Below, piece after piece: positions 11,239 to 26,533 of a DNA stretch of 33,833 nt. The notes below the pieces were generated by a model. That model saw only the letters and a program-made list of their open reading frames with translations. It did no database searches and had not been told where the DNA came from. Origin of the DNA: a virus. The position numbers and the translations under genes are program-made. Position 1 is the stretch's first letter; every line of letters begins with the position of its first letter. Location of the stretch: the IMG/VR virus record IMGVR_UViG_3300044971_003862, positions 1 through 33,833 of that record, one strand, 5' to 3'.

Positions 11239-11295
11239 GTGCTAACGGGTGGTTGAGGGTGGGCGACGGCGAGGGCCTGCCGTGGTCATGATGTG
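11239..11295 (+). promoter_or_regulatory. Late-promoter-like repeat, copy A
   Basis: Bases 11239-11268 are identical to 17962-17991, and the start GCTAACGGGTGGTT also matches 26479-26492. Without gaps, all three copies share a GAC triplet and a TGGT at fixed distances downstream. This copy lies directly after the terminator and before the first late gene, where a late promoter is expected. Promoter function is inferred from placement. Confidence 0.6.
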
Positions 11296-11415
11296 GCCGC
11301 GCTGGACGGCGCGTCATGGTTAGGGGCCGTCGCCGCACTGGGTCCGGGAGACTCACGCGGCGGCGGTTTTTCCAGGGGCGTCGTCGGCGGAATCACATCC
11401 ACCTCGAACCCCAAA

Positions 11416-11841
11416 ATGAAACACCAGCTCATGAATCGCTTCGGCCTCGTCATCGGCACCCTGGCTTTTGCCATCGGCCTCATCCTCCTGGGAGGCGGCC
11501 TGCCTTCCTGCTCCACTCCCCAGCAGACCGCCCGGCTCGTGGCGCTCTCGGAAATCGGCCTCGCCATCGCCAAGTCCAAGGGCCTCGTGTCTGAGGGCGA
11601 CACGGTGCTGATCCGAAACGGCCTGGCCGTCGTCACCTCGGAAAAGTCGGACATGGAAAAGGTCTTCAGCCTCAGCCGCATCGGTCTGCATGAGGCCGTG
11701 CAGGAGGGCGTGATCAAGGAAGGCGACTCGGTGCTCATCGAGCAGGCTGCCGCGATCATCCTGAGCACGCCGGAGCCTCTGCCCGACATGACCAGCGCAA
11801 AGGAGCCTGTGGCCGAACTTTTGCCGCCTCCCGGCGGCTGA
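11416..11841 (+). CDS. Small lipoprotein with internal repeat
   Basis: The 141-residue protein starts at the ATG on 11416; in-frame upstream codons lie too close to the promoter-like repeat. A hydrophobic signal segment (about 9-28) ends in LPSC, a lipobox with Cys32. The mature part contains a tandem repeat of about 32 residues: LSEIGLAIAKSKGLVSEGD-like at 44-75 and LSRIGLHEAVQEGVIKEGD-like at 86-117. A proline-rich tail follows. As first late gene beside the endolysin, it may be an outer-membrane lysis component (o-spanin-like), although those are usually shorter. It may instead be a surface protein. Confidence 0.6.
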   Translation: MKHQLMNRFGLVIGTLAFAIGLILLGGGLPSCSTPQQTARLVALSEIGLAIAKSKGLVSEGDTVLIRNGLAVVTSEKSDMEKVFSLSRIGLHEAVQEGVIKEGDSVLIEQAAAIILSTPEPLPDMTSAKEPVAELLPPPGG

Positions 11842-12006
11842 ACACGGTCCCCTTGTCGCGTGCGGGTATTGATCCGAACGGCGCAGGGACCTGGACCCTG
11901 AATGCCCTCCTGGATTGAGTTTGATCCACACGCAAGCGCCGACGGGCGGCGCGTTTTCCGCCGTGGGCACCCGGCACCTGCCACGGCACCTCCCCTCCAT
12001 ACCGCC

Positions 12007-12453
12007 ATGATTTCACTCACCACCGCTTACTCGATCACCGCCGAAAAGCTCAAGACACTCGCGCCTGTCTTCCGCAAACGTGTCGAGGCCTGGCTCAACG
12101 ACTGCCGCGCCGTTGGCTTGCAGCCCTACATTTACGAAGGCCTCAGGACGTCCAAGCGCCAGGACGAACTCTATGCCATCGGCCGCACGGTGAACAGAGG
12201 CAAGCCCAAGGTCACCAACGCCAAAGGTGGGCAGTCAATGCACCAGTATGGCCTTGCCGTGGACTTTGTGCCGCTGGTGCCGTCAAAGGCTGCTGGCCTG
12301 CACGAGGCCGACTGGAGCGACAAGGCTTACAAGCCCTATCACGAGATCGCCGCAAAACATGGCCTGCGCCGACTGAGCTGGGAAACTCCGCATCTCGAAG
12401 ACGCCACGGTGAAAGACTGGAAGGCCGCCGCTGAACTCTACCGCCCTGCCTGA
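12007..12453 (+). CDS. Peptidase M15 endolysin (peptidoglycan L,D/D,D-peptidase)
   Basis: This protein would cleave cell-wall peptides at the end of infection. Its 148 residues fit single-domain phage M15 lysins. The zinc ligands are in SMHQYGLAVDF (His79, Asp86) and in ETPH (His129), with Glu126 at the catalytic acid position. It lacks a signal peptide, so it needs a holin or another exit route, and no obvious holin is next to it. I chose the ATG at 12007, where the recognisable domain begins. Confidence 0.85.
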   Translation: MISLTTAYSITAEKLKTLAPVFRKRVEAWLNDCRAVGLQPYIYEGLRTSKRQDELYAIGRTVNRGKPKVTNAKGGQSMHQYGLAVDFVPLVPSKAAGLHEADWSDKAYKPYHEIAAKHGLRRLSWETPHLEDATVKDWKAAAELYRPA

Positions 12454-12455
12454 TC

Positions 12456-12809
12456 ATGACACCTGGTCGCTATGACATCACCCTCCGGCGCGGCGTGTCC
12501 TGGGAAGGACTCAGGCTGGAGCTCTTTGATTCCGCCGGTGCACCGTCGGATTTGACGGGCTGCACCGCCTTTGCCCAGGTCCGCAAAAAGCCGGGTGGTG
12601 ACATCATCGCCGAGCTGACGGCCGTTGTGTCGACCGACGTGGAAGATCCCGGCGTCATCGCCATTAGCGCCCTGACAGCCGCCCAGACGGAAGCCCTGAG
12701 TGTCGGCAAATACCGCTGGGACCTGGTCACGGCAAAAGACGGCGACCGCCATGGCCCGTGGCTGGTCGGTGAATTCATCGTCGAGGACATCATCACCAAG
12801 CCCACCTGA
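12456..12809 (+). CDS. Small beta-rich virion protein
   Basis: The protein has 117 residues with alternating strands (YDITLRRGVSWEGLRLELFD, then KYRWDLVTAKDG, then WLVGEFIVED). This matches the pattern of small beta-sandwich baseplate or fibre-attachment proteins, similar to the N-terminal BppU type. It lies directly before the collagen-like fibre and overlaps it by one base, so a fibre-joining role is likely. Confidence 0.6.
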   Translation: MTPGRYDITLRRGVSWEGLRLELFDSAGAPSDLTGCTAFAQVRKKPGGDIIAELTAVVSTDVEDPGVIAISALTAAQTEALSVGKYRWDLVTAKDGDRHGPWLVGEFIVEDIITKPT

Positions 12810-14248
12810 TGTCCGCCGTCTCCACCATCGTTGTGCGCTCTGCCGAGCAGCTCGTCACTGTCGAGCAGCCATCCACGGCACCACGCGTCGCGGCCGTCCA
12901 GGTCAGCCCTCCGCGCGGGCTGCCTGGGGCGGAGATTGAGCTGCGCGTCAATGACACGCACATCCAGTGGCGTGTTGTAGGAGCGGCGTCCTGGATCAAT
13001 CTGATCGCCCTCGCCACTCTCATCGGCCCCACCGGGGCGACAGGGGCCGCTGGAGCCACCGGCGCGACTGGCCCTGCCGGTGACGATGGCGCGGCCCCCG
13101 AACTCCAGGTGGACGGCACCATGCTGCAATGGCGGCTGGTCGGCGCGGCGACCTGGAACAATCTTTTTGACCTCAGCACGCTCGGTGGGCTGGTGACTCC
13201 TGTTGCCGTGGCCGAGGGCGGCACAGGTGCGGATAACGCGGCAGCAGCCCGCATCAACCTGGGCATTGAAAGCCTGGTGCCCGCTGTAGCGCAGGTGACA
13301 GAGCTGACTTTCAGCGGTGCAAGCGACGGTTCTTACATTGACATCCCCGTCAGCTCCACTGCGATTGTTCGGGCGTGGTGGAACGTTGATTCCGGCGGCA
13401 ATGCTCCGGCGGCTCCATCGGAGGGTGTGCTGATTGCCATGGGGGTCACGGCAGGTGTCACAGCAGATGATGCGGCACAAGCGTTGACTACTGCTGTCCA
13501 TGGCGTGCTGGGGCTCACTGCAAGCCGCTCCGGAAATGTGGTGACGCTGACGCAGCCCGCCGGAGTCGTGCCACCAGTGGATGTGAGTTCGGGCGGCGCC
13601 TTCTCAGCCACCACGACGATCACCGGAGTGGACGCGTATCGCCGATTGTTGAGCAGCCGCGCGGATGTCTTGCAGCTGCTTGACCAGGCCATCGGCTCCA
13701 TGGGATATTTTGACGGCAACATCTGGCGGGCTCTGGTCCCTACCGCGTTTTCTCAATTTGCTCGGTTGTCAGTCGGATCTGTGCCTGAATTGGTGGAGCC
13801 CGAGAGCGTGCAGTTTGCGCGTCTTGCCAATGATGCATCACTGACCAGCACAGCGCTTGCGAATATTTTGACAGTGCCGCTCAAGGCCTACGGCCGTTAT
13901 CTGGTGTTCGCGTTTGGTCCTCACACCAGCAACACGACCACGGAAGGCATGTATGTCAGCCTGAATGCGTCAGTCGCACCCAGCAGCGTGGTCTTCGGCA
14001 GCGTCAATTTCATCGGCGTCAACACCCTAAACGCCGTCAATGTGGGAACAGCCTACAATGCAATTGCTGCGGGCGCGTTGACCGGCCCTGGAACCACGGC
14101 CCGACCGTTCATTCTGTTTGGCTTTGTCGAAAACGGTGGGGCGGACACAAACCTCTACTTGCGTGCGGCAACCGAGACGGGCGGCGCGAACAGCAGCGTC
14201 CTTAAGGCCGGAACCGTGCTGGTCGCCATCCCGCTTTCTCCATTCTGA
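12809..14248 (+). CDS. Collagen-like tail fibre / receptor-binding protein
   Basis: The protein has 479 residues. It contains eight Gly-X-Y triplets at 73-96 (GPTGATGAAG...), a trimerising collagen-like stem. The stem is flanked by two copies of a module of about 28 residues (ELRVNDTHIQWRVVGAASW at 44-62 and ELQVDGTMLQWRLVGAATW at 98-116). Then comes the common phage-fibre motif EGGTGADNAAAARINLG (136-152), a middle shaft and a beta-rich tip. It would bind the host surface. The start overlaps the previous stop (TGATG). Confidence 0.8.
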   Translation: MSAVSTIVVRSAEQLVTVEQPSTAPRVAAVQVSPPRGLPGAEIELRVNDTHIQWRVVGAASWINLIALATLIGPTGATGAAGATGATGPAGDDGAAPELQVDGTMLQWRLVGAATWNNLFDLSTLGGLVTPVAVAEGGTGADNAAAARINLGIESLVPAVAQVTELTFSGASDGSYIDIPVSSTAIVRAWWNVDSGGNAPAAPSEGVLIAMGVTAGVTADDAAQALTTAVHGVLGLTASRSGNVVTLTQPAGVVPPVDVSSGGAFSATTTITGVDAYRRLLSSRADVLQLLDQAIGSMGYFDGNIWRALVPTAFSQFARLSVGSVPELVEPESVQFARLANDASLTSTALANILTVPLKAYGRYLVFAFGPHTSNTTTEGMYVSLNASVAPSSVVFGSVNFIGVNTLNAVNVGTAYNAIAAGALTGPGTTARPFILFGFVENGGADTNLYLRAATETGGANSSVLKAGTVLVAIPLSPF

Positions 14249-14249
14249 C

Positions 14250-14669
14250 ATGACTCTTTCCGACCACATCCGTCTTGCCTTTGGTCGGCCGCACGTTGCG
14301 CGCGGTCCCGCCATGGCCGACGTTACGTTTGATGACGGCCTTGAGCCTCCCAGCGCTGAGGACCTGGAGGCAACGCATGCAGCAGCCTTGCAGCTATGGA
14401 CTGAGGAGCAGGCGGCGAACAACGTGCCGCCGCCGGTGACCAGGCGGCAGCTGAAGCGGTGGCTGCATTCACGAGGCCTGCTTGAAGCGGTGCCTCAGCT
14501 GATTGCCAACATCGCTGACACCAACGCCCGTGCACTTGCTCAGATCGACTGGGATGAGGCGTCCGTGTTCGAGGCGAACAACCCGCTCGTGCTGACGTTT
14601 GCCGCTGCCCTGGGGATGACTCGCGAGCAGTTGCACGCCGCCTGGATCGAAGCCGCTCAAATCTTTTAG
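14250..14669 (+). CDS. Fibre-associated accessory protein
   Basis: The protein has 139 residues. The C-terminal 75 residues (from TRRQLKRWLHSRGLLEAVPQ through WDEASVFEANNPL to ALGMTREQLHAAWIEAA) follow a pattern common in small proteins next to phage tail fibres: an Arg-Gln helix, then I-x-W-(D/E) with NPL, then a final helix. These are thought to be fibre assembly or attachment factors. It starts 1 base after the fibre gene. Confidence 0.6.
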   Translation: MTLSDHIRLAFGRPHVARGPAMADVTFDDGLEPPSAEDLEATHAAALQLWTEEQAANNVPPPVTRRQLKRWLHSRGLLEAVPQLIANIADTNARALAQIDWDEASVFEANNPLVLTFAAALGMTREQLHAAWIEAAQIF

Positions 14670-14673
14670 TCAC

Positions 14674-15210
14674 ATGATCGCCCAAGCCACCACCGACATC
14701 AGCAGCGTGCCCGCTGACTTCGTGAAGAATTTCCTGATCATGCTCGCCTTCGTCTTCGGCGGGTCTCTGGGCGTGCTGTTTGCGCGCAAGGGCACCAAGA
14801 AAGACCCGCTGAGCATCGAGCAGCCGCTTTCCGTGGACGCCTCCGTGACGCACGCGCCGGAGTTCGCGCGGCAGACGGCTCTTGATAAGCTGCGTGCGGA
14901 CATGGAGGCGCGCACCCGTGAAAACCTGCGCCAGCATGACGAGCATTCATCTCGCCTTGCCGAGATCATCACGGCCGGCCATGAACGGCAGGAGAGAATC
15001 CTGTCGGCACTGTCGGAGATGGAAACCAGAATGACCCAGGCGACGCTGAAGGAGCTGAAGGACATCCACCAAAGACTCAACCCGCTCGCCGAAAGCACGG
15101 CAGGCCATGCCCAGGCCATCAAGGGCCTCGATGACCGGATCAAACACCTGTGGGAAATGATCCAAGCCCTCTGGTCCCAGGTCTTCCGCAAATCCGCACC
15201 CCGCTCCTAA
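14674..15210 (+). CDS. Membrane-anchored coiled-coil protein (possible i-spanin or holin-related)
   Basis: The protein has 178 residues. One N-terminal membrane helix (about 18-38, FVKNFLIMLAFVFGGSLGVLF) is followed by a long charged coiled coil (about 65-165). This matches the architecture of inner-membrane spanins. With the M15 lysin and the lipoprotein upstream it could form the lysis set. Late phage proteins with this layout also occur just before gp27, where Mu has membrane proteins of unknown role. Confidence 0.55.
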   Translation: MIAQATTDISSVPADFVKNFLIMLAFVFGGSLGVLFARKGTKKDPLSIEQPLSVDASVTHAPEFARQTALDKLRADMEARTRENLRQHDEHSSRLAEIITAGHERQERILSALSEMETRMTQATLKELKDIHQRLNPLAESTAGHAQAIKGLDDRIKHLWEMIQALWSQVFRKSAPRS

Positions 15211-15215
15211 CCACC

Positions 15216-15470
15216 ATGACCGCCGCCTCCATCGCCCTCCGTCCCGTCATCCGCGAAATCATGCGCGCCGCGCCATCACGCCGGTGGAGCGAGGCAGCGT
15301 TGATTGCTCAATGCCGCACCCTTGATCCCTCAGCCCGCGCCGTCGACGTCCAGGCGGCCGTGGTCTGGAATCAGGGCCAGGGTTTCCTGGCCAGCTCCTA
15401 CAACGCGGAGATGGAGTGTGACATGTGGTCCCTGACTGACGCGGGCAAGTCCGCCAACCCAAACGCCTGA
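15216..15470 (+). CDS. Small late protein, winged-helix-like
   Basis: The 84-residue protein has a helix-turn-helix/wing-like order (SRRWSEAALIAQC, then ARAVDVQAAVVWNQGQGFLA, then DMWSLTDAGK) resembling small winged-helix proteins. The place just before the small terminase matches Mu gp26-type genes. Function unknown. Confidence 0.55.
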   Translation: MTAASIALRPVIREIMRAAPSRRWSEAALIAQCRTLDPSARAVDVQAAVVWNQGQGFLASSYNAEMECDMWSLTDAGKSANPNA

Positions 15471-15474
15471 CGCC

Positions 15475-16122
15475 ATGGCACGCAAACCGCATCCATCCTC
15501 CGTGCTCAAGGTGCTGCCTGACGATGACCAGGCCGCGCTCTTCGACTTCCTGCGTGAGCACACGCTCGCCGAGGGCGTGGCCTGGTTGTTCTCGAACAAC
15601 GGCGTGCGGACCAATGATTCGAGCCTGAGCGAGTGGCGCTCGTGGTATAAGATGAGCCAGGACATCGCCGCCTGGGACAACGACATTGCCTCCCTGCAGG
15701 AGCAGCTCGCGGGCATGGGCACCGACCCGGATCTGATCCCCAAGATCGGCGAGGCCGTGTTCATCAGCCGGGCGGCCAAGTCGGGCGACGCCAAGACCTT
15801 CGCGACCGTGGCCTCCGTGATCCAACGCCACCGCGAGCTTCAGGCCAGCCAGCAGCAGCACGTGGACAAGATGCAGGTGAAGGGCAAGGAGCTGGAGCAG
15901 CGTGACAAGACCATCGCGCAGAAGGATGAGGTCATCGAAATGCAGCGCCGGAAGATTGAAGCGCTGGAGGCTCAGGCCGAGGCCGCGAAGAAGGCCGCCG
16001 AGAAGACCAAGGAAGCCCTGAAGAGCGGCGGCATGGACGAGGCCACGCGCAAGGCTCTGATGGAGGAGATGGACCAGATGATCCTCGGCGTGAAGAAGGC
16101 CACCAAACCAACCGCCTCCTGA
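15475..16122 (+). CDS. Mu gp27-like small terminase subunit
   Basis: The 215-residue protein matches the DUF3486/gp27 pattern. The N-terminal DNA-binding helices have the typical S-S-V-L-x-x-L-P beginning, with a segment LSEWRSWYK. A long coiled coil follows (about 115-180, heptads with Lys/Glu). Its immediate neighbour is the large terminase. In Mu this protein recognises packaging DNA. Confidence 0.75.
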   Translation: MARKPHPSSVLKVLPDDDQAALFDFLREHTLAEGVAWLFSNNGVRTNDSSLSEWRSWYKMSQDIAAWDNDIASLQEQLAGMGTDPDLIPKIGEAVFISRAAKSGDAKTFATVASVIQRHRELQASQQQHVDKMQVKGKELEQRDKTIAQKDEVIEMQRRKIEALEAQAEAAKKAAEKTKEALKSGGMDEATRKALMEEMDQMILGVKKATKPTAS

Positions 16123-16123
16123 C

Positions 16124-17695
16124 ATGCTCATTAAAACCGCGCCCGACATCGAGAGCGAAAGCGGGCTCTCACGCTATCTGCTGCCGTTGCAGGTGGAGGG
16201 AGTCATGAACGATGCCAGGTATCAATACACGGAGAAGTGCAACCGTTGCGGCTGGTCCTGGATCATGGCCCTGAAGGATGTGCGCAAGCGCCTCATGAAT
16301 CCGCGCCGCGACTGCCTGTTCACGACACAGAACTGGAACGGTGCCGTTGAGTTTGGTCGCTACATCGACCAGTGGCTTGCAGTCTATGACCTGGGGCGTC
16401 ACGTCATCTCCACCGGCGAAGAATGGATCACCGTCCACAAGGATGATGGCAAGGGCGGCAAGGTGGCCGTGCAGGAAAAGGTGGGCATCTACAAGTTTGA
16501 TGGAGGCTCGCGCATCATCCTGTTTTCGTCCTCTCCATGGGCCATCCAAACCTTTGAAGGTGACGTGCGATGGGACGAGGCTGCTTTCCATGAGCACCAG
16601 GAGCAGATGCACGCGGCTCTCTCCACCCGTATCCAGTTCGGATATGATTACCACGTCTGGAGCGCTCACAACGGCATGGGGTCTTGGTTTAACCAGGTGC
16701 TGGGCAAGATCGCCCGTGCGCCCGGCTCGGGATGGCATTGCCGCAAGATCACCATTTACGACGTGATTGAGCAGGGCCTGGTTGAAAAGATCAATGACCG
16801 GGCCGGAACAAACATGACTCGTGAAGAGTTCCTCGCCGACTGCCGCCGCCGCGCACTTACACCGGCCATCTTTGCCGAGCGTTTCGAGTGCAACCCCGCT
16901 GACTCCGGCAACAGCATCGTGCCGTGGGGAGTCATCGAGGCGCGCAGGGACCAGGTGATTGCCCGTGAGCATGTGGCGGATGCCTGGGTGAAGGATCGCT
17001 TTGGCGCGGCCGATGCCGGGAAGGAGCGGCGTGTCCGCCTCATGCGTGAATGGCTGGCGGAGCGCTTTGGCGGAGTGCTGAGCAAGCCCGCTCACTGGCG
17101 TGTCGGCTTTGACGTGGCCGCCTCCGGCAAAGGTGACCTTGGTTCATTCTGGATCGACCAGAAAGTCGGCGACACCTATGAGCAGCGCGCCCTGCTGACG
17201 ACGCAGACGGAAGACTGGCACTTCTTGAAGACGGCCTTGTGCTACTTCCTGGACACGCCGGGCATGAAGGGCGCTGGCGACGCCACGGGCCTTGGCAAAC
17301 AGATCACCTGGGAGGCCTCCCAGGATTACAGCGGCCGGTTCATCGGCGTGCCGTTCACCGTCGGCAACAAAAGCCGCATGGGCACACGCATCATGACGCA
17401 GCTGCAAACCGGCGACCGCCGTCTCGCGACCGGGCATGATGACGTGGCCATGGACGTGTTCAGCGTGCAGAAGAAGACCGAAGGCAGCCAGATCACATTT
17501 ACCACGACGGCAAACCCGCTGAACGCGGCAAGTCACGGAGACATGTTCTGGTCCGCCGCGCTCAGCTCCGAGATTGACCTGGACGGCCTGCCGGATGCCC
17601 CGCCTCCCCACCCCCTGCCCAAGCCGACGGAGGAATCCTGGATGCGTGCCGCAACCCGTGGCCTGGCGCGTCGTTTTCGTGGCCTGCCAGGGTGA
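16124..17695 (+). CDS. Mu gp28-like large terminase
   Basis: This is the packaging motor ATPase and nuclease. The protein has 523 residues; Mu gp28 is about 550. The ATPase has a deviant Walker A near 38-46 (KCNRCGWSW, matching the K-x-R-x-x-G-x-S-W form of the gp28 family) and Walker B GDVRWDEAAF at 146-155 with Asp151-Glu152. The C-terminal RNase H-like nuclease has acids in VGFDVAASGKGDLG, in GAGDATGLGKQ and in SHGDMFWSAALSSE. It starts 1 base after gp27. A Pro-rich then Arg-rich tail ends the protein. Confidence 0.88.
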   Translation: MLIKTAPDIESESGLSRYLLPLQVEGVMNDARYQYTEKCNRCGWSWIMALKDVRKRLMNPRRDCLFTTQNWNGAVEFGRYIDQWLAVYDLGRHVISTGEEWITVHKDDGKGGKVAVQEKVGIYKFDGGSRIILFSSSPWAIQTFEGDVRWDEAAFHEHQEQMHAALSTRIQFGYDYHVWSAHNGMGSWFNQVLGKIARAPGSGWHCRKITIYDVIEQGLVEKINDRAGTNMTREEFLADCRRRALTPAIFAERFECNPADSGNSIVPWGVIEARRDQVIAREHVADAWVKDRFGAADAGKERRVRLMREWLAERFGGVLSKPAHWRVGFDVAASGKGDLGSFWIDQKVGDTYEQRALLTTQTEDWHFLKTALCYFLDTPGMKGAGDATGLGKQITWEASQDYSGRFIGVPFTVGNKSRMGTRIMTQLQTGDRRLATGHDDVAMDVFSVQKKTEGSQITFTTTANPLNAASHGDMFWSAALSSEIDLDGLPDAPPPHPLPKPTEESWMRAATRGLARRFRGLPG

Positions 17696-17780
17696 CCGCC
17701 GGAAAGGCCCCTTTTGCCGCTTTGGGCGGGTCCGGACGGGTCAATACCGCTCCCACCCCCCGTTTAGGGCCTAAAACAGC

Positions 17781-17798: not shown

Positions 17799-17835
17799 AT
17801 GCCTGTCGGGCCAGGGCGAAACCCCCGGAATGCCA

Positions 17836-17961: not shown

Positions 17962-18018
17962 GTGCTAACGGGTGGTTGAGGGTGGGCGACGAGCGGTGCT
18001 GGTGATGGTGTCATGCGG
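17962..18018 (+). promoter_or_regulatory. Late-promoter-like repeat, copy B
   Basis: The first 30 bases are identical to copy A. The distal part shares TGATGGTG and ATGCGG with copy C at the same distance (18003-18018 and 26518-26533). It immediately precedes the portal gene, after the non-coding gap. It probably drives the head genes. Confidence 0.62.
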
Positions 18019-19618
18019 CGTGCTGAAACCGCTCCGCCAAATCTGGAACCGCTACGTCGCCGCCCCGGCCGGGCAGGCGGCGAACATGGCCCGCACCGTG
18101 GTCGCCAGTCTGACCATGCAGGTCCACGTTAAGTCCGCAAACCTATGGCGCGACCTCTTCAACCCTCTGCGCGGCCTGACCATGTCGCGGGCGGTGTCCT
18201 ATCTGGAAGAGGGCGAGCGCGGGGCCTATGCCGACCTGCAATGGCTGTTTCGCTACATCGAAAAGCGTGATGCCACGCTGAGAGGCGGCAAGCGCTCGCT
18301 GCTCTCCGCCGTCAGCGCCATGGACTGGGAGATCAAGAAGGTCGACAAGGCGCGCCTTCCTGCTGGTTACACCGAAGACCAGGCCAACGCTCAGGCGGTG
18401 ACCCTGCGCACGGCCTATGATGCCATCGCAAACCTGAGCGAGGCGATTGAGTTCCTGGGCCTGGCCGAATTTCGCGGCTTTGCGCACCTGGAAAAGATCG
18501 TGGGTCTTTCCGGCGGCCGCCAGACCGTCACAGAGCTGAGGCCGGTCGAGCAATGGTATTGGTGCCGCAACGGCCTCAATGGTGCCTGGGAATACAACCG
18601 GGATGCCCGGCCCGGCTCCATCAAGGGCGAAGCGATCGACACTTCCAAGTTCGTGATCCGCGAGATCGACGACCCGATCAATGAAATCGCCCTGATTGCC
18701 TTTGTCCGAAAGCAGCTCGGGCGGAAAGACGAGGACGGCTTCATTGAGAGCTTCGGCATTCCTTCGATCTTTGCGATCATGCCTCAGAACGTGCCGAGCG
18801 GCAGGGAGGCTGAATACCAGGCGCTCGCCGACCAGGTCATCAGCGACTCACGCGGCACGCTCCCCCATGGCAGCGACATCAAGACCCTGGACGCCGGGGC
18901 GCGCGGCGTTGCACCTTTTCGCGCCTACCAGGAGGCCTTGGACAAGGAGATTGTCATGGCCATCACCAGCGGCCAGCTCACCATGCTCGCGGAGAGCGGC
19001 AGCGGCACGCTCGCCGGTGGCGCGCATAGCGACACCTTCCTGCGCGTGGCTCGTGCCCTGGCGCGCCGCATCACCTCCACGTTGCAGCGGCAGTTTGACC
19101 TGGCCGTGCTGGCCGAGGCCCATCCGGGCCAGCCACCCCTGGCTTACTTCGAGATCCTGGCCAATGAGGAAACCGACGTTGGCGAGGTCGTGAAGGACGT
19201 GCAGACGCTCAAGACCGCCGGGTATCAGGTGGAAAGCGGCTGGCTGGCTGAGAAGACCGGTTATCCGGTGTCGGCGGCGCCTGCGGCTGCAACCCCTGCG
19301 CTTGGCAACCGAGCCGCCCATGCGGCCCCAGTGCCGGCCGAGACCGAAGACATCGACGGCGACTTCCTGGAGGATGCCCTGGAGATGATTGACGAAGCCA
19401 TGCAGGCCGACTGCACGGAGCTTGCAGCCCGGCTGCAAAACCTCATCACCGAAGATCTGAGCGACGAGGAATTCCGCTCACGTCTGGAGCAGCTCAAGGC
19501 GGACCTTCCAGGCCTGGCCGCCAAAGTGGGCGGCGGGGAAAAAACGGTGAAGGCATGGGAGGCCGTCCTGGCGGCCGCGCTTGGCAACGAAGTTTCCGCA
19601 GAAGACGATGAAGACTGA
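18005..19618 (+). CDS. Mu gp29-like portal protein (DUF935)
   Basis: The portal forms the ring at the capsid vertex for DNA entry and exit. The protein is up to 537 residues from the ATG at 18005. That codon lies inside the repeat element, so a later start (GTG 18020 or ATG 18086) is possible. The DUF935 core begins at NPLRGLTMSRAVSYLEEGE, followed by IEKRDATLRGGKRSLLSAV and SAMDWEIKKV, the usual Mu gp29 signature. The C-terminal 90 residues are acidic and helical. Confidence 0.85.
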   Translation: MVSCGVLKPLRQIWNRYVAAPAGQAANMARTVVASLTMQVHVKSANLWRDLFNPLRGLTMSRAVSYLEEGERGAYADLQWLFRYIEKRDATLRGGKRSLLSAVSAMDWEIKKVDKARLPAGYTEDQANAQAVTLRTAYDAIANLSEAIEFLGLAEFRGFAHLEKIVGLSGGRQTVTELRPVEQWYWCRNGLNGAWEYNRDARPGSIKGEAIDTSKFVIREIDDPINEIALIAFVRKQLGRKDEDGFIESFGIPSIFAIMPQNVPSGREAEYQALADQVISDSRGTLPHGSDIKTLDAGARGVAPFRAYQEALDKEIVMAITSGQLTMLAESGSGTLAGGAHSDTFLRVARALARRITSTLQRQFDLAVLAEAHPGQPPLAYFEILANEETDVGEVVKDVQTLKTAGYQVESGWLAEKTGYPVSAAPAAATPALGNRAAHAAPVPAETEDIDGDFLEDALEMIDEAMQADCTELAARLQNLITEDLSDEEFRSRLEQLKADLPGLAAKVGGGEKTVKAWEAVLAAALGNEVSAEDDED

Positions 19619-20606
19619 CACGCACATTCTCAACAGCATGTCCATGGAGGCCGGTGACGGCGTCACCCGCTGGATGCACGTTTGTCCCTTCGGAGAGCAC
19701 CCGTGGACGTCCGCCGATGGCAAGGAGCGAATCATCCAGGTCATCGACCGCGAAGGCTGCGAGGCCATGGCGGCGCATTATCCGATCAACGTGCCGAACT
19801 CGCGCATCGACGTGGACCATGAAAGTATGGACGCGGAGAAGAGGACGGCGGCCGTGGGCTGGGGGCAGCGCGCCGAGGTGCGGGACGACGGCCTGTGGGT
19901 GCTGACTGAATTCACCCCGGAAGGAGCCACCCTGGTGAACGGCAAGGTCTACAAGTTCAACTCACCGTGTTTCCCGCGCGAAGGCCTGGTCGACCTGGGC
20001 GACGGCCGTTTTCGCGTGACAAGGCTGAGCGTCATCGCGCTCACCAACGATCCCAATTTGAGGGGCCAGAAGCCTCTCACGAACCGCCGTGCGCAAACGG
20101 CAAACCCAAACCCAAACACACCCACCGACATGGACTACAAGGCCGAGCTGCTGAAGCTCCTGGGTCTGCCACCGGAAGCGACTGACGACCAGATCGCCAA
20201 CGGCTGCGCCGCCCACAAAAGCAAGACGGACGCGATGAACAGCCGCGTCACCGAGCTGGAGATCCAGCTCGTCAACCGTGATCTCGACGAGCACGGCATC
20301 ACCGACAGCGAGCAGCGCAAGCTGCTCACGCCCATGCTGGCGAACAAGGATCAGCGGCCCGCCGCCCTGGCCATCATGGCTCGTGGCAAGTCGGCCCCTG
20401 CGCCCGCCGCGCCTCTCCACAACCGTCAGGGCGCTCCGACGCCCGGCACGGACAAGACGCTCAGCAAGGGGGCTGATGACGAAGCCAAGGCCGAGGCGGC
20501 GTTTCACGCCGACGTCCTCGACTACAAGAACAGCAAGCAGTGCACCTACGAAGAGGCGCACAAGGCGGTCACGAACCGCCGCCGCGCCGCTTCTGCTGCC
20601 GCCTAA
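19608..20606 (+). CDS. Mu I-like head maturation protease with scaffold domain
   Basis: The protein has 332 residues. The N-terminal protease resembles Mu gp32/I: catalytic-type His in IDVDHES (about residue 68) and Ser in the strand YKFNSPCF (about 118), separated by the GLWVLTEFTPEGA strand. A Pro/Asn linker around 165-174 leads to a helical scaffold-like part (from MDYKAELLKLLGL). The gene overlaps the portal by 11 bases. The product would cleave itself, the scaffold and perhaps the capsid protein during assembly. Confidence 0.82.
   Translation: MKTDTHILNSMSMEAGDGVTRWMHVCPFGEHPWTSADGKERIIQVIDREGCEAMAAHYPINVPNSRIDVDHESMDAEKRTAAVGWGQRAEVRDDGLWVLTEFTPEGATLVNGKVYKFNSPCFPREGLVDLGDGRFRVTRLSVIALTNDPNLRGQKPLTNRRAQTANPNPNTPTDMDYKAELLKLLGLPPEATDDQIANGCAAHKSKTDAMNSRVTELEIQLVNRDLDEHGITDSEQRKLLTPMLANKDQRPAALAIMARGKSAPAPAAPLHNRQGAPTPGTDKTLSKGADDEAKAEAAFHADVLDYKNSKQCTYEEAHKAVTNRRRAASAAA
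20130..20606 (+). CDS. Nested scaffold, in-frame internal start (Mu Z-like)
   Basis: An in-frame ATG at codon 175 of the protease gene, just after the linker, would give a 158-residue scaffold alone (MDYKAELLKLLGLPPEA...). Mu makes Z from inside I in the same way. No Shine-Dalgarno precedes it, but the rest of the phage also lacks them. Confidence 0.45.
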   Translation: MDYKAELLKLLGLPPEATDDQIANGCAAHKSKTDAMNSRVTELEIQLVNRDLDEHGITDSEQRKLLTPMLANKDQRPAALAIMARGKSAPAPAAPLHNRQGAPTPGTDKTLSKGADDEAKAEAAFHADVLDYKNSKQCTYEEAHKAVTNRRRAASAAA

Positions 20607-20639
20607 CCCAGAACCTAGGAACTCCAGAAACCAACTCTT

Positions 20640-21359
20640 ATGTCAAAGCAACTTCGCGCTCTTGCGCTTCTCTCCATCACTCCGGGTGAGACCTTCGCCG
20701 ACAAGGTCGGCCGTTTCATCACCAGCGACGGCATGCTCGTCGCCTCCGCCCTCGCGCTGCCCTGGGCGCTCATCGTCGGTCACACGGACGGCACCACCGC
20801 CGCTGACGTGGCGGTGTGTTCCGGCGGCTCGCCCGGCACGTGGCCGGTGCAGCTCAGCGCCTCCCCGGGAACCGTCGCACGCGGCACCAAGCTGATGCTC
20901 ACCAGCAACGGCACGGTGAAGGCGCATGACGGTTCCACCTCCGCCCGCATCGTGGCCGAGGCCCAGGAATCCGGCACGGCGAACGAACTCATCGAGGCCG
21001 TTCTCCTGACGCCGTATTTCAGCGGCCGCCAGGTCGTGGTGGACACGGACGGTGCCACTCTCACCGCTGCTCAGAGCGGTGCCGTGGTCTCCAACGCCGG
21101 TGCATCTGCCGCCGCCGCGTTCGTGCTGCCCGCCGCCGTTCCTGGCCTGGAGTTCATCTTCGAGGTCGAGGCCGCGCAGGAGCTGCGCGTTGATCCGAAC
21201 GGCACGGAAACCATCGCCCTGCCCGCCACCGGCGTGCAGCAGGCCGCTGGCAAATACATCGTCGCGGACGCCATTGGCGAGCGCATCCACATCGTCTGCA
21301 TCACGGCCGGGACCTGGGACGCCATCTCCTACGCTGGCACCTGGACGGCTGAAGCCTAA
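20640..21359 (+). CDS. Capsid decoration-like protein
   Basis: The protein has 239 residues between protease/scaffold and major capsid, the usual slot for a head decoration protein. The N-terminal 140 residues are beta-rich (SASPGTVARGTKLMLTSNGT, IVAEAQESGTANELIEAVLL), like DUF2190-type decoration proteins. The C-terminal 95 residues (146-239, ending WDAISYAGTWTAEA) share a pattern with the protein at 29884: N-x-G-A-S, a middle R-x-(N/D)-P, and a W-D-x-I-S-x-x-G-T-W-T ending. Confidence 0.7.
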   Translation: MSKQLRALALLSITPGETFADKVGRFITSDGMLVASALALPWALIVGHTDGTTAADVAVCSGGSPGTWPVQLSASPGTVARGTKLMLTSNGTVKAHDGSTSARIVAEAQESGTANELIEAVLLTPYFSGRQVVVDTDGATLTAAQSGAVVSNAGASAAAAFVLPAAVPGLEFIFEVEAAQELRVDPNGTETIALPATGVQQAAGKYIVADAIGERIHIVCITAGTWDAISYAGTWTAEA

Positions 21360-21371
21360 CCCACCTCAACA

Positions 21372-21397
21372 GGCGGTCCGGCAGATGCCGGGCCGCC
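21372..21397 (+). other. Strong RNA hairpin before the capsid gene
   Basis: An 11-base stem (GGCGGTCCGGC with GCCGGGCCGCC, one G-U pair) and a four-base loop AGAT lie 43 bases before the major capsid start. There is no T tract, so it is not a classical terminator. It may stabilise or partition the capsid mRNA. Confidence 0.65.
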
Positions 21398-21439
21398 GCT
21401 CACAAACATCAGCAACGCAACTTCAACGCCTTCATTCCA

Positions 21440-22354
21440 ATGAGCAACACTGCCCAGACCAACATGCGCCTGACGAACTATGCCCAAGGCATTTCTCAGG
21501 ACCTCTCCCGCAAGCTTGCGGATTTCATCGCCCCTCGTGTCCCCACGGGCGGCAGCTACGGCCAGTTCAAGAAGTTCTCTGACAAGAACGCCTTCCAGGT
21601 CTACGACACCGCCCGCGCAATGGGCGGCGAGGCCAGGACCATCGAGTTCGCGGACTCCGACCCCTACTACAACTGCACGCCTCAGGCGCTCAAGATCGGC
21701 ATCGACGATGCCGAGCGCAAGCGCGCCGGTGACAACGACAGGCTGCTGGAGGAGGCCAAGGTGAAGACGCTCGTCTCCGCCGCCACCCTCAGCCATGAGG
21801 CCAAGGTTTTCGCCAAGGTCTTTGCCTCGCTGACCGCCGTCGCAGGCAAGGGCGTGTGGTCGAACGCCGCCGTTGATCCGGTGGCTCAGCTCAATGAGCA
21901 GATCAAGGCCATCAGCGATGAGACGGGCATCATGCCCAACCGCATCGTCTTCGGTCTTTCCGCCTGGGCGGTCTTCATTGATCACACCCTGGTCAAGGCC
22001 CGCCAGCCTGGTGCCGAGCTGATCGCCATGACGACGGACAAGATGAAGCCCATGCTGCTGAATCCCTCCATGCAGATCGAGATCGGCGTGCTGAGCAAGG
22101 ACAGCAAGAAGTTCGGCGCGGACAAGTCCGCCACGAACATCGTCGGCGGCGAGGTCATCATCTTCTACGGGCAGGACAACCCCTCGCTCTATGACCCCTC
22201 CGCCTTCAAGACCTTTGAAACGGTCGGCGGCGGCGTGGACAGCGTGAAGCAGTATCGCGACAACAGCCGCAGCTCCGACATGTATCAGGTCGACTGGAGC
22301 GAGGACATCCAGGATGTCGCCCCCACTCTGGCCCGCCGCATCACCCTGAGCTGA
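21440..22354 (+). CDS. Major capsid protein
   Basis: The protein has 304 residues, the typical length for an HK97-fold capsid of Mu-like phages (Mu T is 296). A helical N-arm is followed by GSYGQFKKFSDKNAFQVYDT, a spine helix region (LEEAKVKTLVSAATLSHEAK), and late beta segments with NRIVFGLSAWAVF and GGEVIIFYGQDNPS. The protein ends WSEDIQDVAPTLARRI, resembling capsid C-termini. It follows the decoration gene and is flanked by two RNA hairpins. Assignment rests on order and pattern. Confidence 0.82.
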   Translation: MSNTAQTNMRLTNYAQGISQDLSRKLADFIAPRVPTGGSYGQFKKFSDKNAFQVYDTARAMGGEARTIEFADSDPYYNCTPQALKIGIDDAERKRAGDNDRLLEEAKVKTLVSAATLSHEAKVFAKVFASLTAVAGKGVWSNAAVDPVAQLNEQIKAISDETGIMPNRIVFGLSAWAVFIDHTLVKARQPGAELIAMTTDKMKPMLLNPSMQIEIGVLSKDSKKFGADKSATNIVGGEVIIFYGQDNPSLYDPSAFKTFETVGGGVDSVKQYRDNSRSSDMYQVDWSEDIQDVAPTLARRITLS

Positions 22355-22412
22355 TCCAGCTACCCCACCGAAGGAATGCGCCTCATGCTGGCAGGCAGGC
22401 GCGACATCAACC

Positions 22413-22438
22413 GGGCTGGAGGCTGCCAACTCCAGTCC
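22413..22438 (+). other. RNA hairpin after the capsid gene
   Basis: GGGCTGGAG (22413-22421) pairs with CTCCAGTCC (22430-22438, one G-U) around the loop GCTGCCAA, in the 107-base gap after the capsid stop. There is no T tract. It may protect the capsid message 3' end or attenuate read-through. Confidence 0.6.
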
Positions 22439-22461
22439 AACCCTTTCCTGAACTACCCAGC

Positions 22462-23094
22462 ATGAACGCAGCCGTCACCGTCATCCTCATCAGCACAGAA
22501 TCCGTCGCGGAGTTTCTGCACGATTCATTCGGCAACTATCGTCCGGACCTGAAGCCAGGAGAATCGCCTCCGGGTCAAACGATGTGGCTTGGAAAAGTAC
22601 TGTCGCCAGGATTTGAGCACGAAGTCCGCCAATGGCGTTTTCTTGCGGAAGACTTCATCAAGTGGTTTCAGCGGCGGCTTGGTGATGCCGCCAAGCCTCA
22701 TCCGTTGGCAGCCGAGCTTACCACCAAGCAAGCCCCGGACATTACCACGCTCACTGCTGAGCGGGACGATTTGAATGCACGTCTGCTTGATGTCACAGCC
22801 GCTGCCGCTGTTACCGCTGGGCGGATTGAACGACTGCAAGATGAGCTTGCCCGAGTCCGCAAGCATGAGACGGAGCTGATCCAGGATCGCGACCGGCTGA
22901 TTCACAAGGACCTCGCGCAACTGCACAAAGAGGTTGATGACCTGAAGGGCGAACTCGAAAACGAGCGAGCGGCAAGAAAGATTTACAGCGACAGACTTGC
23001 GAAGTCTGATTCGGAATTGGCTGCGGCCTTGGATCGCGAGCGCCGCCTGTCCGAACGCCTGGCCAATGTCGCCTCGCTGGTTTCTGACATGTGA
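22462..23094 (+). CDS. Coiled-coil protein after the capsid gene
   Basis: The protein has 210 residues. The first 85 are globular and aromatic. Residues about 90-205 form a long coiled coil with strong Glu/Arg/Leu heptads (IERLQDELARVRKHETELIQ...). No family is recognised. Its codon use is less GC-rich than the capsid gene, and the slot between capsid and gp36 is not usual for a coiled coil, so it may be an acquired gene. Confidence 0.65.
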   Translation: MNAAVTVILISTESVAEFLHDSFGNYRPDLKPGESPPGQTMWLGKVLSPGFEHEVRQWRFLAEDFIKWFQRRLGDAAKPHPLAAELTTKQAPDITTLTAERDDLNARLLDVTAAAAVTAGRIERLQDELARVRKHETELIQDRDRLIHKDLAQLHKEVDDLKGELENERAARKIYSDRLAKSDSELAAALDRERRLSERLANVASLVSDM

Positions 23095-23124
23095 TCCCGT
23101 CCAACCGCCAACGATTTTTACGCC

Positions 23125-23571
23125 ATGCCCTGGATCAACATCACCGAAGCGGACCTGCTCAGCACAAAAATGGCACCGCTGGTCTCCGCGCTCCGCAGTG
23201 CTGCCACCGACCCGGCTCAGGACGATCCCGTTGACGCGATCACGGCGGACGTCATTGCCCGGGTGCGTAACAAGGTCAGCTCCTGCAGCACCAACAAGGT
23301 CGATGCGGACACCACGAAGATTCCGGCCAGCCTCAAGGCGCTGGCCTGCCGAATGATCATCCGCGAGGCCAAGGGCCGCCTGGACATGGACCTGACTGAG
23401 GACGAGCGCACGCAACAGGGCATCGACGAGCGCGAGCTAACCGCCGTGGCCCGCTGTGAACTCGTCGTGGACCAGGCCGAAACACCCGAGGCACCCCCGG
23501 TGCAGTCAGTCCAGCCAGGTCCGACGATCAACGCCCGCCCGCGTCGTTACCGCTGCCAGGACGGCGTGTGA
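23125..23571 (+). CDS. Mu gp36-like head-tail connector (DUF1320)
   Basis: The protein has 148 residues and begins with the gp36 pattern, an I-x-E-x-D-L segment. A helical bundle follows, with DPVDAITADVIARVRNKV and a C-terminal helix over KALACRMIIREAKGRL. The last 40 residues are Pro-rich. In Mu-like phages the gp36 gene follows the capsid gene and gives a head-completion/connector protein. Confidence 0.65.
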   Translation: MPWINITEADLLSTKMAPLVSALRSAATDPAQDDPVDAITADVIARVRNKVSSCSTNKVDADTTKIPASLKALACRMIIREAKGRLDMDLTEDERTQQGIDERELTAVARCELVVDQAETPEAPPVQSVQPGPTINARPRRYRCQDGV

Positions 23572-23587
23572 CTAAACCGCCCGCCTC

Positions 23588-25114
23588 ATGACCTTCACCA
23601 CGCCAGTCCCTCTTGAAGACGCGCTGCGTATCCTGCGCGAGAAAAAGCTGGTGCCCACGGCGCTGGGCAGTGATGGCCTGCGCGAGCTGGCGGCCGAGGT
23701 GAAAAACGCGGCGCTTTTTTCAGCACGAATGACCCAGCTGCGCCCCCTGCAGGTGCTGGCGGCCGTGCTGGCGGAAATGATCCAGGGCCAGGCCAATGTG
23801 GCGGACGCGAAACTGGTCCTGACGGAAGTCTACCGCGCCCTGGGCTATGACCCCGAGCAGGGTGGCTTCCCCCAAGACCCTCCTGGCACGATTCCACCGG
23901 CTTTGCGTGGCACGCTGCGGGATCTCAGCTCCGAGCGCCGCATGGAGCTGACCATCACAACGAATTACCGCATGGTGACCAACGCGGCCTTTGTGAAGAG
24001 GACCACGGAGGACGAACAGCGCCGGTATCAGTTCCCATGCTTTGAGCTGGTGCGCATCGCCCCCAGGACCACGCCGCGCGGGTTCGTGCGGAGAAACGGG
24101 CAGCTCGACACCAAGCCGGGCGATGACTGGGAATCCCGCTGGGTGGCCGCCGGTGGCGAACTCTACGAAAAGAACACGCGCATGATTGCGCTCAAAGGCG
24201 CGGCCGTCTGGGCCGCCCTGGGTGCTGGCGAGGGTGGTTACACCGACACGCTCGGCAACCCCTTTCCTCCCTTTGCCTTCGGCTCAGGCATGGGCCTGCG
24301 CGAAGTATCACGCGGGGAGGCCCTGACCATTGGAGTCATCGCCCCTGAGGACCAGGCGGCCGCCATGCCGTCCACCCTGCGCGCCAGCCTCAAGGCCCAG
24401 GGCAAAGGTATTCCCAAGGACATCCTGGATGCCTTTGACGACCTGGAAGACGACGGGGAGTGGCTGCGCCTGGCCAAGGCAAGGCAGCTCAAGGCCGAGG
24501 CTGCGCGCAAGCTGCGCAATGACGTGGCCACGCTGGCGGAGGTGCTGATGAATGCCCGCACCAAAAATCCGCGTGCGGCTGCGCTGCTGGGCTGGATCAC
24601 ACGCAGGCTCAATCTGCCGCCCAAGATGATGTCAGTGGCTCAGGCTGATTTCCTGTTAGAGGTGGGCGTGGCCGTGAAGAGCAAGCATGGCGACAGTATC
24701 CGTTTCGGGCAGTCGCTCAAAGCCAAATTGGACAAGATGGGTGCGGAGGGCGAGCGCCGTAAAACTCATCTGGCCTGGGCATTGCATACCGTGATGAGTG
24801 GAGCCGAGTCAGGCCGCCAGCAAAATGGAGAATGGCGGAGAAACTACGCCCGCATTTACAAACCACACGGCAAGAAGGAAAAGGCCATGCTTGTGGTGAC
24901 TAGAGTTAAGGATGGTGAGGCCTTCGACATCATGCGCAAAGACGTCACATGGGTGAAGGCGCAAGGCCTGGATAATCGGTCTATGAGCGGGCGGCCACTC
25001 ACGCCGACCTCCTCGCCTTATGCTGCCGCCAGCAAGCGAGAAGGAGCACTGAATTGTGTCACACTCCGCAGCCGCTGCAAGCTCCTTGCAGGCCTTCTTT
25101 CCACCGCTCCATGA
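23588..25114 (+). CDS. Large minor-head-type protein, function uncertain
   Basis: The protein has 508 residues. The N-terminal region (1-110) is helical. The middle (110-260) contains LSSERRMELTITTNYRMVTN, then WESRWVAAGGELYEKNTRMIALKG and NPFPPFAFGSGMGLREVSRGEA. I associate these motifs with a conserved minor head / virion morphogenesis protein of Mu-like phages, in the role of Mu F. The C-terminal third is basic with a 45-residue tail of odd composition. It is ATGA-coupled to the next gene. Confidence 0.6.
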   Translation: MTFTTPVPLEDALRILREKKLVPTALGSDGLRELAAEVKNAALFSARMTQLRPLQVLAAVLAEMIQGQANVADAKLVLTEVYRALGYDPEQGGFPQDPPGTIPPALRGTLRDLSSERRMELTITTNYRMVTNAAFVKRTTEDEQRRYQFPCFELVRIAPRTTPRGFVRRNGQLDTKPGDDWESRWVAAGGELYEKNTRMIALKGAAVWAALGAGEGGYTDTLGNPFPPFAFGSGMGLREVSRGEALTIGVIAPEDQAAAMPSTLRASLKAQGKGIPKDILDAFDDLEDDGEWLRLAKARQLKAEAARKLRNDVATLAEVLMNARTKNPRAAALLGWITRRLNLPPKMMSVAQADFLLEVGVAVKSKHGDSIRFGQSLKAKLDKMGAEGERRKTHLAWALHTVMSGAESGRQQNGEWRRNYARIYKPHGKKEKAMLVVTRVKDGEAFDIMRKDVTWVKAQGLDNRSMSGRPLTPTSSPYAAASKREGALNCVTLRSRCKLLAGLLSTAP

Positions 25115-25716
25115 GTCTGTCCTTTGAAGTGAACGTCAGCGGTGACGAGCAGGTGATCAAGCTGCTCGGCCGCCTCCGGTCTTCGTTGACTGATAAGGGC
25201 GCGCTCCATCAGAGCATCGGCACCTATGCTGAGCAGCTCACCCGCCAGCACCTGACCGTCCTGGCTGGGACCAGGCACGACACGGCCCGCCGCCTGGGGG
25301 CGAGTCCAACGGGCCACCTGGCCCGCGCGGCCGAAACCGTCACCAGCAGGGGCACTCAGGACGCTGCCATTGTCACCGTGGTTAGCCCGGGTATCAGCCG
25401 CGCCTTTGGGGATCTGACTATCACCCCGAGGTCTAGCAAGTATCTGACCATCCCGGCCGCTGCCGAATCCTATGGCCGCCGCGCTCGCACGTTCGGCGAC
25501 TTGCGCGTTGCCTTTTTTGGCCGGGGCCGCATGGCGCTGGTGCAGCCAGATCCGGACGGCTCTCGTGATCGGGTGCTGTATTGGCTCAAGAAACAGGTGA
25601 AGCAGCGGCAGGACCGCTCGCTTCTACCTCCTGACCAAGACTTTGCCGACGCTGCCGCCCAAGGCATCAAGGCTTACATCCGCATGCTTCGTTCCGCCGT
25701 CTATACCTCCTCCTGA
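25111..25716 (+). CDS. Mu G-like virion morphogenesis / tail completion protein
   Basis: The protein has 201 residues from the ATG overlapping the previous stop. Layout matches the phage virion morphogenesis family: an N-terminal strand then a helix (VIKLLGRLRSSLTD), HTS-type basic helices, LGASPTGHLARAAETVTSRG, and a final strand and helix. These proteins cap the tail or head-tail joint. Confidence 0.6.
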   Translation: MSLSFEVNVSGDEQVIKLLGRLRSSLTDKGALHQSIGTYAEQLTRQHLTVLAGTRHDTARRLGASPTGHLARAAETVTSRGTQDAAIVTVVSPGISRAFGDLTITPRSSKYLTIPAAAESYGRRARTFGDLRVAFFGRGRMALVQPDPDGSRDRVLYWLKKQVKQRQDRSLLPPDQDFADAAAQGIKAYIRMLRSAVYTSS

Positions 25717-25718
25717 TT

Positions 25719-26483
25719 ATGAATGACCTCGAACAATTCCAGACCGATGTGGAAACTTATCTGGCCTCCTGTGAGGCCGACATCCTCAACGCGGATGAGA
25801 CGCCCATCCAATGCGCTATGATCGCTCGCGTGAGACCGCGTACGGCCGCCGAGGCAGCAGGCATTCAGACGAAGCTTCAGCAGGCTTTGTCCGGGCTTCA
25901 GGGCCGCAACGGCCGCAAGGGCATCAGCATCATCGTCGGCATGCCCGAGGTGGCCGAGGTGAACAGCTCCAACCGCGCTCTATCGGGCAGCTTGACCTTG
26001 GTCATCGAGGTCCATGAGAATATCCTTGTCAATGGCGGAGCCGATGGCTGCTGGCCACATGGCGCAGAATCTTTTGCCCTGACCGTCGCCGAGCTGCTCA
26101 GTCATCAGGTCTTCTCACACTTCAGCCCTCTGCGGCTGAAGAGCATTCTGCCGGTTCCAGAGGCCGTCGTGACACAAAAGGTCGTTTATAACGTCACGAT
26201 GGTCGCCGATCTGCGGCGGCCCCTCAAACCCATGGTTGGCGCTCCAAATATCAGCCAGGCTGAAGGCGGGCTTGTGACCATCACATGCCCAACGACCGGC
26301 GCGCTCATTTACTGGACGCAGGACGGCTCATATCCGGGTCGTGCGAATGATGCCGCGCGGATCTATGAGCCGGCCGGAATCAGCCTGCCTCCGGGCACGC
26401 ACACATTGCGTGCGGCTGCATCAAAGCCTGGGCATGTTGGCAGCCTAGTGGACGAGCTGACGGTGACGGTCTCGGCGGGCTAA
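25719..26483 (+). CDS. Tail terminator-like protein with C-terminal chitobiase-like domain
   Basis: The protein has 254 residues. The first 165 resemble gp37/DUF1834-like tail-terminator proteins: an N-terminal helix EQFQTDVETYLA, then KGISIIVGMPEVAEVNS, and a strand-rich centre SGSLTLVIEVHENILVN. Residues about 175-254 form a CHB_HEX_C-like beta-sandwich (ISQAEGGLVTITCPTTGALI, YWTQDGSYPG, LPPGTHTLRAAASKPGH). This is the Ig-like fold of chitobiase C-termini, which also decorates phage tails. Its stop codon lies inside late-repeat copy C. Confidence 0.68.
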   Translation: MNDLEQFQTDVETYLASCEADILNADETPIQCAMIARVRPRTAAEAAGIQTKLQQALSGLQGRNGRKGISIIVGMPEVAEVNSSNRALSGSLTLVIEVHENILVNGGADGCWPHGAESFALTVAELLSHQVFSHFSPLRLKSILPVPEAVVTQKVVYNVTMVADLRRPLKPMVGAPNISQAEGGLVTITCPTTGALIYWTQDGSYPGRANDAARIYEPAGISLPPGTHTLRAAASKPGHVGSLVDELTVTVSAG

Positions 26484-26533
26484 CGGGTGGTTCAGGGGCG
26501 ATGACACGCCCGTGCTGTGATGGTGCAATGCGG
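26479..26533 (+). promoter_or_regulatory. Late-promoter-like repeat, copy C
   Basis: It starts GCTAACGGGTGGTT, identical to A and B, and ends TGATGGTGCAATGCGG, matching B except at two positions. It overlaps the stop of the tail-terminator gene and lies 21 bases before the major tail protein start. It would boost the tail block. Confidence 0.6.

Follow-up and report, generated by a model that had tools for sequence, protein, structure and literature searches.

Gene Layout and the Repeated Element

The window, meaning the whole stretch of DNA analysed here, is a 33.8-kb virus contig (record IMGVR_UViG_3300044971_003862; 33,833 nucleotides), and the subject of this analysis is an element of 14–30 bp that occurs in it as three same-strand copies, A, B and C, heading the lysis, portal and tail blocks. 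The gene set comprises a Mu-type portal (PF06074), a Mu I-like protease, a major head protein, a terminase, a Mu-type transposase, a MuB-like protein and Gam; judged by its sequence, the window represents a transposable phage of the Mu type, with its relatives found in Verrucomicrobiota. The virus infects bacteria of soil and water. Portal relatives in sequenced genomes are nearly all Verrucomicrobiota records (one of 15 is labelled Betaproteobacteria), and the nearest, at 65% identity, comes from a Prosthecobacter metagenome-assembled genome (MAG), with the viral contig L095 equally near. The early genes, transposition included, run leftward from about 10.5 kb, and the late genes run rightward from 11.4 kb. 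The features on which the argument depends are as follows:

4209–6245, minus strand: Mu-type transposase A, early operon (phrog_310, E 2.4e-17)
9185–9598, minus strand: HTH_17 (BldC/excisionase-type) protein of 137 amino acids, leftward early operon, the proposed late activator (PF12728, E 6.6e-07)
11206–11233, plus strand: terminator-like hairpin and T-run ending the operon upstream of copy A (10-bp stem, −18.6 kcal/mol, z −5.06)
11239–11295, plus strand: copy A, heading the lysis/fibre block; phage-specific block GTGCTAACGGGTGGTTGAGGGTGGGCGACG (11239–11268), spacer, −10-like CATGAT at 11287–11292
11416–11841, plus strand: lipoprotein-like gene of the lysis block, first late gene after copy A; a homologue follows copy A in L095
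16124–17695, plus strand: terminase large subunit, last gene of the block before copy B (phrog_5909, E 7.4e-12)
17962–18019, plus strand: copy B; the same 30-nt block (17962–17991), TGG, −10-like TGTCAT at 18009–18014, and the portal start GTG 5 nt on at 18020
18020–19618, plus strand: Mu-type portal, first gene after copy B (PF06074, E 2e-37)
25719–26483, plus strand: last gene of the head/neck block, overlapped by copy C
26477–26534, plus strand: copy C; GCTAACGGGTGGTTCAGGG block, TGG, −10-like TGCAAT at 26524–26529; overlaps the stop codon of the upstream gene and precedes the tail gene at 26555
26555–27517, plus strand: first gene of the tail block, after copy C

A preliminary description of this DNA had reported a common sequence at 11241, 17964 and 26479, and GCTAACGGGTGGTT is indeed found exactly at these three positions on the plus strand, with no further copy on either strand of the window even when 3 mismatches are allowed. 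The 30-base identity claimed for copies A and B is likewise present, since 11239–11268 equals 17962–17991 over 30 nt; by eye, the GAC and TGGT said to stand at fixed spacings occupy element positions 25–27 and 43–46 in all three copies, and the TGATGGTG and ATGCGG said to be shared by B and C lie at equal offsets in both. The rightward orientation and the placement before the lysis/fibre, portal/head and tail blocks are as described. Dispersal of the element within genes, which had been named as a finding that would speak against a promoter, is not the case: copy A begins 8 nt past the hairpin and T-run, upstream of the lysis lipoprotein gene, copy B lies between the terminase and portal genes, and copy C is at a gene boundary, overlapping a stop codon. 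A simple terminator scan held no entry at the 11206–11233 hairpin.

The repetition exceeds what composition would give. The element is the strongest same-strand repeat of the window: its best pair reaches a score of 30, whereas 30 dinucleotide shuffles gave 19.7 at most, and none of these shuffles contained a 13-mer three times; in a scan of the whole window, the element was the only family with three well-separated copies under the settings used. The exact 14-mer is found in 89 IMG/VR stretches, with a single match in each of the 80 listed; in none of the 89 does the similarity extend, and these matches were treated as chance. When phage records were searched at the nucleotide level with the portal region, no match was returned, and Rfam gave none reaching the gathering score.

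Elsewhere in the window, an ATPase plus GNAT-like fusion (346–1548, plus strand; phrog_11143, E 4.4e-131) is followed by a formyltransferase-like protein (1545–2210, plus strand; PF00551), a pair that is possibly a DNA-modification module, as Mom in Mu, and that has no late element before it. In the tail block, the protein encoded at 27529–27840 (plus strand) matches phrog_986, annotated as ‘RNA-binding protein’ (E 6.9e-20).

Private Elements in Related Phages

Looked for among relatives, the sequence itself proved private to the window; at the corresponding block heads, however, each of six related phages or prophages has a different repeat of its own. Portal loci were examined for repeats in the window and in 61 of 64 further cases (L104, L135 and L152 were left out), and a repeat scan covered 25 sequences. 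The carriers number seven (the window, L095, L143, G002C97, G015C3, G061C5 and G049C12) and hold 20 copies in all, with three in five of the relatives and two in the mosaic G049C12. Within each phage the repeat is identical or near-identical, and between phages it differs. L095 and L143 each have their own three-copy repeat, the only such family under the settings used, at the three corresponding gene boundaries. A search with the protein encoded upstream of copy C led to ten further regions, of which G002C97 and G015C3 carry their own triple, G202C16 carries a triple of hairpin type, and seven carry none; three of these seven are shorter than 14 kb, and some lack an early region. The third copy in G002C97 and G015C3 lies one gene further upstream, before the homologue of the 25719–26483 gene, and in G061C5 all three copies stand at the expected boundaries. 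A hairpin with a T-run is seen by eye just before copy A in all seven phages, with folding done for that of the window alone.

Several other sequences showed nothing of this kind. L093 (47%), the sole relative from the first scan, has no such element, and Akkermansia phage DTMo-2021a, with a distant portal (25%), has no late-block repeat that could be seen. Several of the other portal relatives, among those listed, have intergenic repeats of low complexity or in tandem at many positions.

Where whole records were searched (four in number), the exact element is confined to the phage or prophage: all three copies in the L095 contig lie within the phage, the 7.3-Mb G002 holds three exact copies for each of its two prophages, and the 6.1-Mb G015 holds three. 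The L143 pattern also has two 3-mismatch sites elsewhere in G002; the other two genome searches gave none at up to 3 mismatches. The element is unlikely to be a transposase end site, since only three exact copies of the L143 element, and likewise of the G015 element, exist in the whole genome, all of them at late-block heads. The two prophages binned to G002 carry different elements, which speaks for a phage-coded reader; as G002 is a MAG, their cohabitation rests on binning. The L095 and L143 pair is instructive in another respect: the tail proteins after copy C are 82% identical, the leader GCTTAACACC...CTGCCATG is nearly unchanged and the flanking genes are well conserved, and it is the element between the genes that has changed, as fits a site following a changing protein.

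Privacy to each phage, orientation with transcription and the difference between two prophages binned to one host would also be expected of an operator or stoperator at which an immunity repressor silences the late genes of the prophage; such a role would explain both the private sequences and heteroimmune cohabiting prophages. However, such a repressor must act in the early region, and in six of the seven phages no copy is found there at up to 4 mismatches of 18, the seventh, G049C12, having two overlapping near-matches in its leftward early region (3 and 4 mismatches of 18); the early control region of the window has different repeats (TTGATATACG), which lie between two divergently oriented ribbon-helix-helix-like genes. 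A repressor operator is therefore very unlikely, the early control region being without the element. The 10-bp direct repeats TTGATATACG, at 10507–10594, are probably the early operator, and near the corresponding place L095 and L143 have Xre/S24-type repressors instead of the ribbon-helix-helix-like genes.

Anatomy of the Element

In six of the seven phages the element is a 9-bp direct repeat. The local self-match at lag 9, summed over the seven cores, amounts to 51, compared with a mean of 15.3 and a maximum of 30 in 4000 shuffles. The period was spotted before testing; lags 5–15 were then all tested on the first five cores, and lag 9 alone stands out. The cores of G061C5 and G049C12, found later, give the strongest lag-9 signal (10 and 13), in comparison with random 29-nt windows from the same genomes, 2.4% of which reach a score of 6 at this lag. 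Dyad symmetry shows no excess in the cores (P 0.63).

Some 15–21 nt after the core stands a weak extended −10-like box (CATGAT, CTGAAT or similar) that frequently follows a TGn. A −10-like box containing ATG occurs 13–28 nt past the core in 18 of the 20 copies; sets of random windows average 5.1, with a maximum of 12 in 2000 sets. The TGGT of the preliminary description looks like part of such an extended −10, its first three bases being the TGn and its last the opening base of the −10 hexamer. By eye, the likely portal start codon (GTG or TTG) lies 5–9 nt past the box in all six phages with a portal copy, a distance that suggests a leaderless or nearly leaderless portal message; L095, G061C5 and G015C3 have an in-frame ATG further upstream as an alternative portal start.

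This arrangement bears on two other explanations. The location just upstream of first genes could suit a structured leader RNA or an RNA processing site common to the late messages, a highly improbable explanation here: the three window copies are without structural signal (z −0.4 to 1.0), and the core would fall outside the message if the −10-like box is used, because the portal start is 5–9 nt after it. Alternatively, the element could be the loading site of a Q- or AlpA-like antiterminator at constitutive late promoters, from which polymerase would then pass downstream terminators. Two papers describe AlpA of Pseudomonas aeruginosa as reading a promoter-embedded element to control a lysis operon (PMC9371919, PMC7969949), and the present sites are likewise in the promoter region. 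Against this, the core ends about 15–21 nt upstream of the −10-like box, so that it sits over the −35 region and not only between −35 and −10, and the promoters look too weak for constitutive use; an antiterminator site is accordingly rated as quite unlikely.

A Candidate Reader Among the Early Proteins

All seven element-bearing phages encode a BldC/excisionase-type helix-turn-helix (HTH) protein of the HTH_17 family in the leftward early operon. When early open reading frames (ORFs) were compared among the first five phages, the transposase and the HTH_17 protein were the only families common to all. All five members scanned match PF12728 at E ≤ 1, the best at 6.6e-07, and the window protein lies above the curated cut-off. 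Out of 13 sequences searched for the protein, five contain it, and precisely these five have an element of this kind; an early region is lacking in some of the remaining eight. When the HTH profile alone was run against 68 genomes of the host family, it recovered the copies of the three prophages already known and added two places, G061C5 and G049C12, and both of these, as predicted, carry such a repeat at block heads. In a 384-genome sample of the class, the profile returned G002, G015 and one short, weak match in G225; scans of viral contigs gave no further relatives beyond L095 itself.

The structure predicted for the protein from a five-sequence alignment has a mean pLDDT (predicted local distance difference test score) of 70.5, with 83–91 over residues 1–40, and the best PDB matches of the model are the BldC-DNA complex (Foldseek probability 1.00) and Pukovnik Xis (Z 6.2, 56 residues, 2.0 Å). 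Rows of the fold searches without a winged-HTH fold (EF-hand and other helical proteins) were taken as background. BldC oligomerises head-to-tail on DNA, each protomer occupying a single 9-bp direct repeat (PMC5859096), and RdfS, which shares this fold group, is described as raising transcription from several promoters (PMC11963761). The HTH_17 protein is the best candidate for the reader because its predicted fold fits 9-bp repeats, its binding to them being inferred.

The same late promoters might have another reader, such as a zinc-ribbon protein comparable to Ogr of P2 or a small sigma-like factor. Zinc-finger activators operate in P2-like phages, and a zinc-ribbon protein is encoded in five of the seven early regions (window 7600–7872, minus strand; L095; L143; G002C97; G061C5). 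However, the same pattern did not find one in G015C3 or G049C12, both of which bear the element; the Ogr site TGT-N12-ACA is matched exactly by none of the 20 copies; and no match to sigma families above the curated cut-off was obtained among the early ORFs scanned. A different reader is thus considered unlikely. GemA and MuB homologues were dismissed as regulators, as they are not present in all phages; the GemA-like protein of the window (2207–2749, minus strand), downstream of the MuB-like gene, falls below the Pfam cut-off and is 47% identical to its L143 prophage counterpart.

Certain borderline cases surround the set of seven. In L106, an exact 28-nt sequence containing a lag-9 repeat (CCCAACNNN) stands at 6185 and again at 11574, before a lysis-like block and a Mu I-like gene, and the phage encodes a double HTH_17-like protein; this possible eighth case is not counted because its copy A merges with a hairpin and T-run. 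L102 and L167 give weak HTH matches, and L102 has no repeat of this kind. At the same kind of block heads, G202:C16 (L224, L225) has a three-copy element built from 9-bp ATCCCC repeats that continue into a hairpin and T-run.

Proposed Mechanism and Its Strength

With a probability of roughly 0.7, the three copies are activator-dependent late promoters, at which an early phage protein, most likely the HTH_17 protein of 9185–9598, would bind the repeats and switch on the late operons. Each late promoter would consist of a phage-specific activator site of tandem 9–10 bp direct repeats, a spacer and a poor extended −10, with no recognisable −35; the HTH_17 protein would bind the repeats head-to-tail beside RNA polymerase, and the lysis, portal/head and tail operons would be switched on together. 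The recognition sequence would change fast between phages, all copies in one phage changing together.

The suggestion of the preliminary description that a phage activator reads a late promoter thereby gains comparative support, from the own elements of six relatives, their confinement to the phage, the change amid similar neighbours, the co-occurrence with the HTH protein and the two predicted cases. These observations, together with the copies, their placement and the 9-bp period, are read from the sequences themselves; promoter activity, the −10 and start points, the activating role of the HTH protein and the leaderless or nearly leaderless portal message are what we infer from them.

Several points weigh against this reading. 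The core of the window itself has a period of 10 (GGGTGGTTGA GGGTGGGCGA), with a score of 6 and a shuffle P of 0.09 for lags 8–11. The −10 boxes are weak, with about 2–4 of 6 matches by eye, and are not strictly aligned; in copy A of the window, the box is offset by one base. The fold-match scores are modest, with a Foldseek E of 0.06 at best and a Z of at most 6.2. Identity in the recognition helix is 22% versus 31–37% in the rest of the HTH protein; being only somewhat lower, it makes co-variation of helix and site suggestive at most. G202C16 combines a three-copy element at block heads with the lack of any detectable HTH homologue, and is set apart because that element belongs to a terminator-like hairpin. 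The mosaic G049C12, which has another head module, holds only two copies, identical over 34 of 34 nt, at the lysis head and before a head gene. To these are added the zinc-ribbon proteins and the near-matches in the early region of G049C12 mentioned above.

In broader terms, the findings suggest that each virus makes its own protein key for its late genes, the key probably being a small DNA-binding protein of a kind not known for this job. It is an even bet that the transposable phages of Verrucomicrobiota have taken up a winged-helix protein of the BldC/excisionase type as their master late activator, with the specificity of that protein replaced repeatedly, all late operators switching together and late circuits kept separate even for two prophages in one cell; the set would then be a natural panel of mutually exclusive activator–promoter pairs. 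Among openly licensed papers, no description of such a late system was found, nor anything on phage late-gene regulation in Verrucomicrobiota. The proposal offers these phages a circuit for late-gene control in which both the candidate activator and its sites are named, and would add a new protein class to the phage late activators. At least seven matched activator/operator sets would be available for studying the joint change of specificity in a regulator and all of its sites, and uncultured phages could be searched for late promoters with a simple rule, namely two to three private repeats of 9-bp units at late-block heads.

Comparison with Known Systems

Resemblances to established regulators are partial in each case. 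The AlpA/Q antiterminators also use a promoter-embedded recognition element to control lysis genes; AlpA differs in its Q21-like fold and in an element located between −35 and −10 (PMC9371919). BldC of Streptomyces is alike in its 9-bp direct repeats (lag 9 in six of the seven elements, lag 10 in the window) and, with the modest scores given above, in its HTH_17-type fold; however, it is a host developmental regulator with A/T-rich sites, whereas the phage sites, to which the HTH_17 protein would bind, are mostly G/C-rich and phage-variable. The excisionase-type factors Xis and RdfS probably belong to the same fold group as the phage protein and also regulate transcription; they act with tyrosine recombinases, whereas the present phages are transposable.

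Parallels in layout are found in phage late regulons. In Mu, the single phage activator C serves several late operons, lysis included, from promoters with non-consensus −10 and −35 (PMC4461284). The window and its six relatives resemble Mu, with its Plys, PI, PP and Pmom, as transposable phages in which a common site heads several late operons, including that for lysis; they differ in having direct repeats that show no excess of dyads, a promoter ahead of the portal instead of gene I, and a leftward early operon. A six-frame search for the Mor/C family of activators (PF08765) gave no match at E ≤ 1 in either the window or the L095 contig, both of which may be fragments. In P2 and P4, several weak late promoters are read by one small phage protein, Ogr or Delta, bound upstream, and the Ogr site is TGT-N12-ACA. 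The layout here is similar; however, that site is absent, with 0 of 20 copies exact and 6 of 20 within one mismatch. On the best reading of these comparisons, the system would operate in the manner of the C late regulon of Mu and the Ogr late regulon of P2, through an activator that is unrelated to theirs and changes fast.

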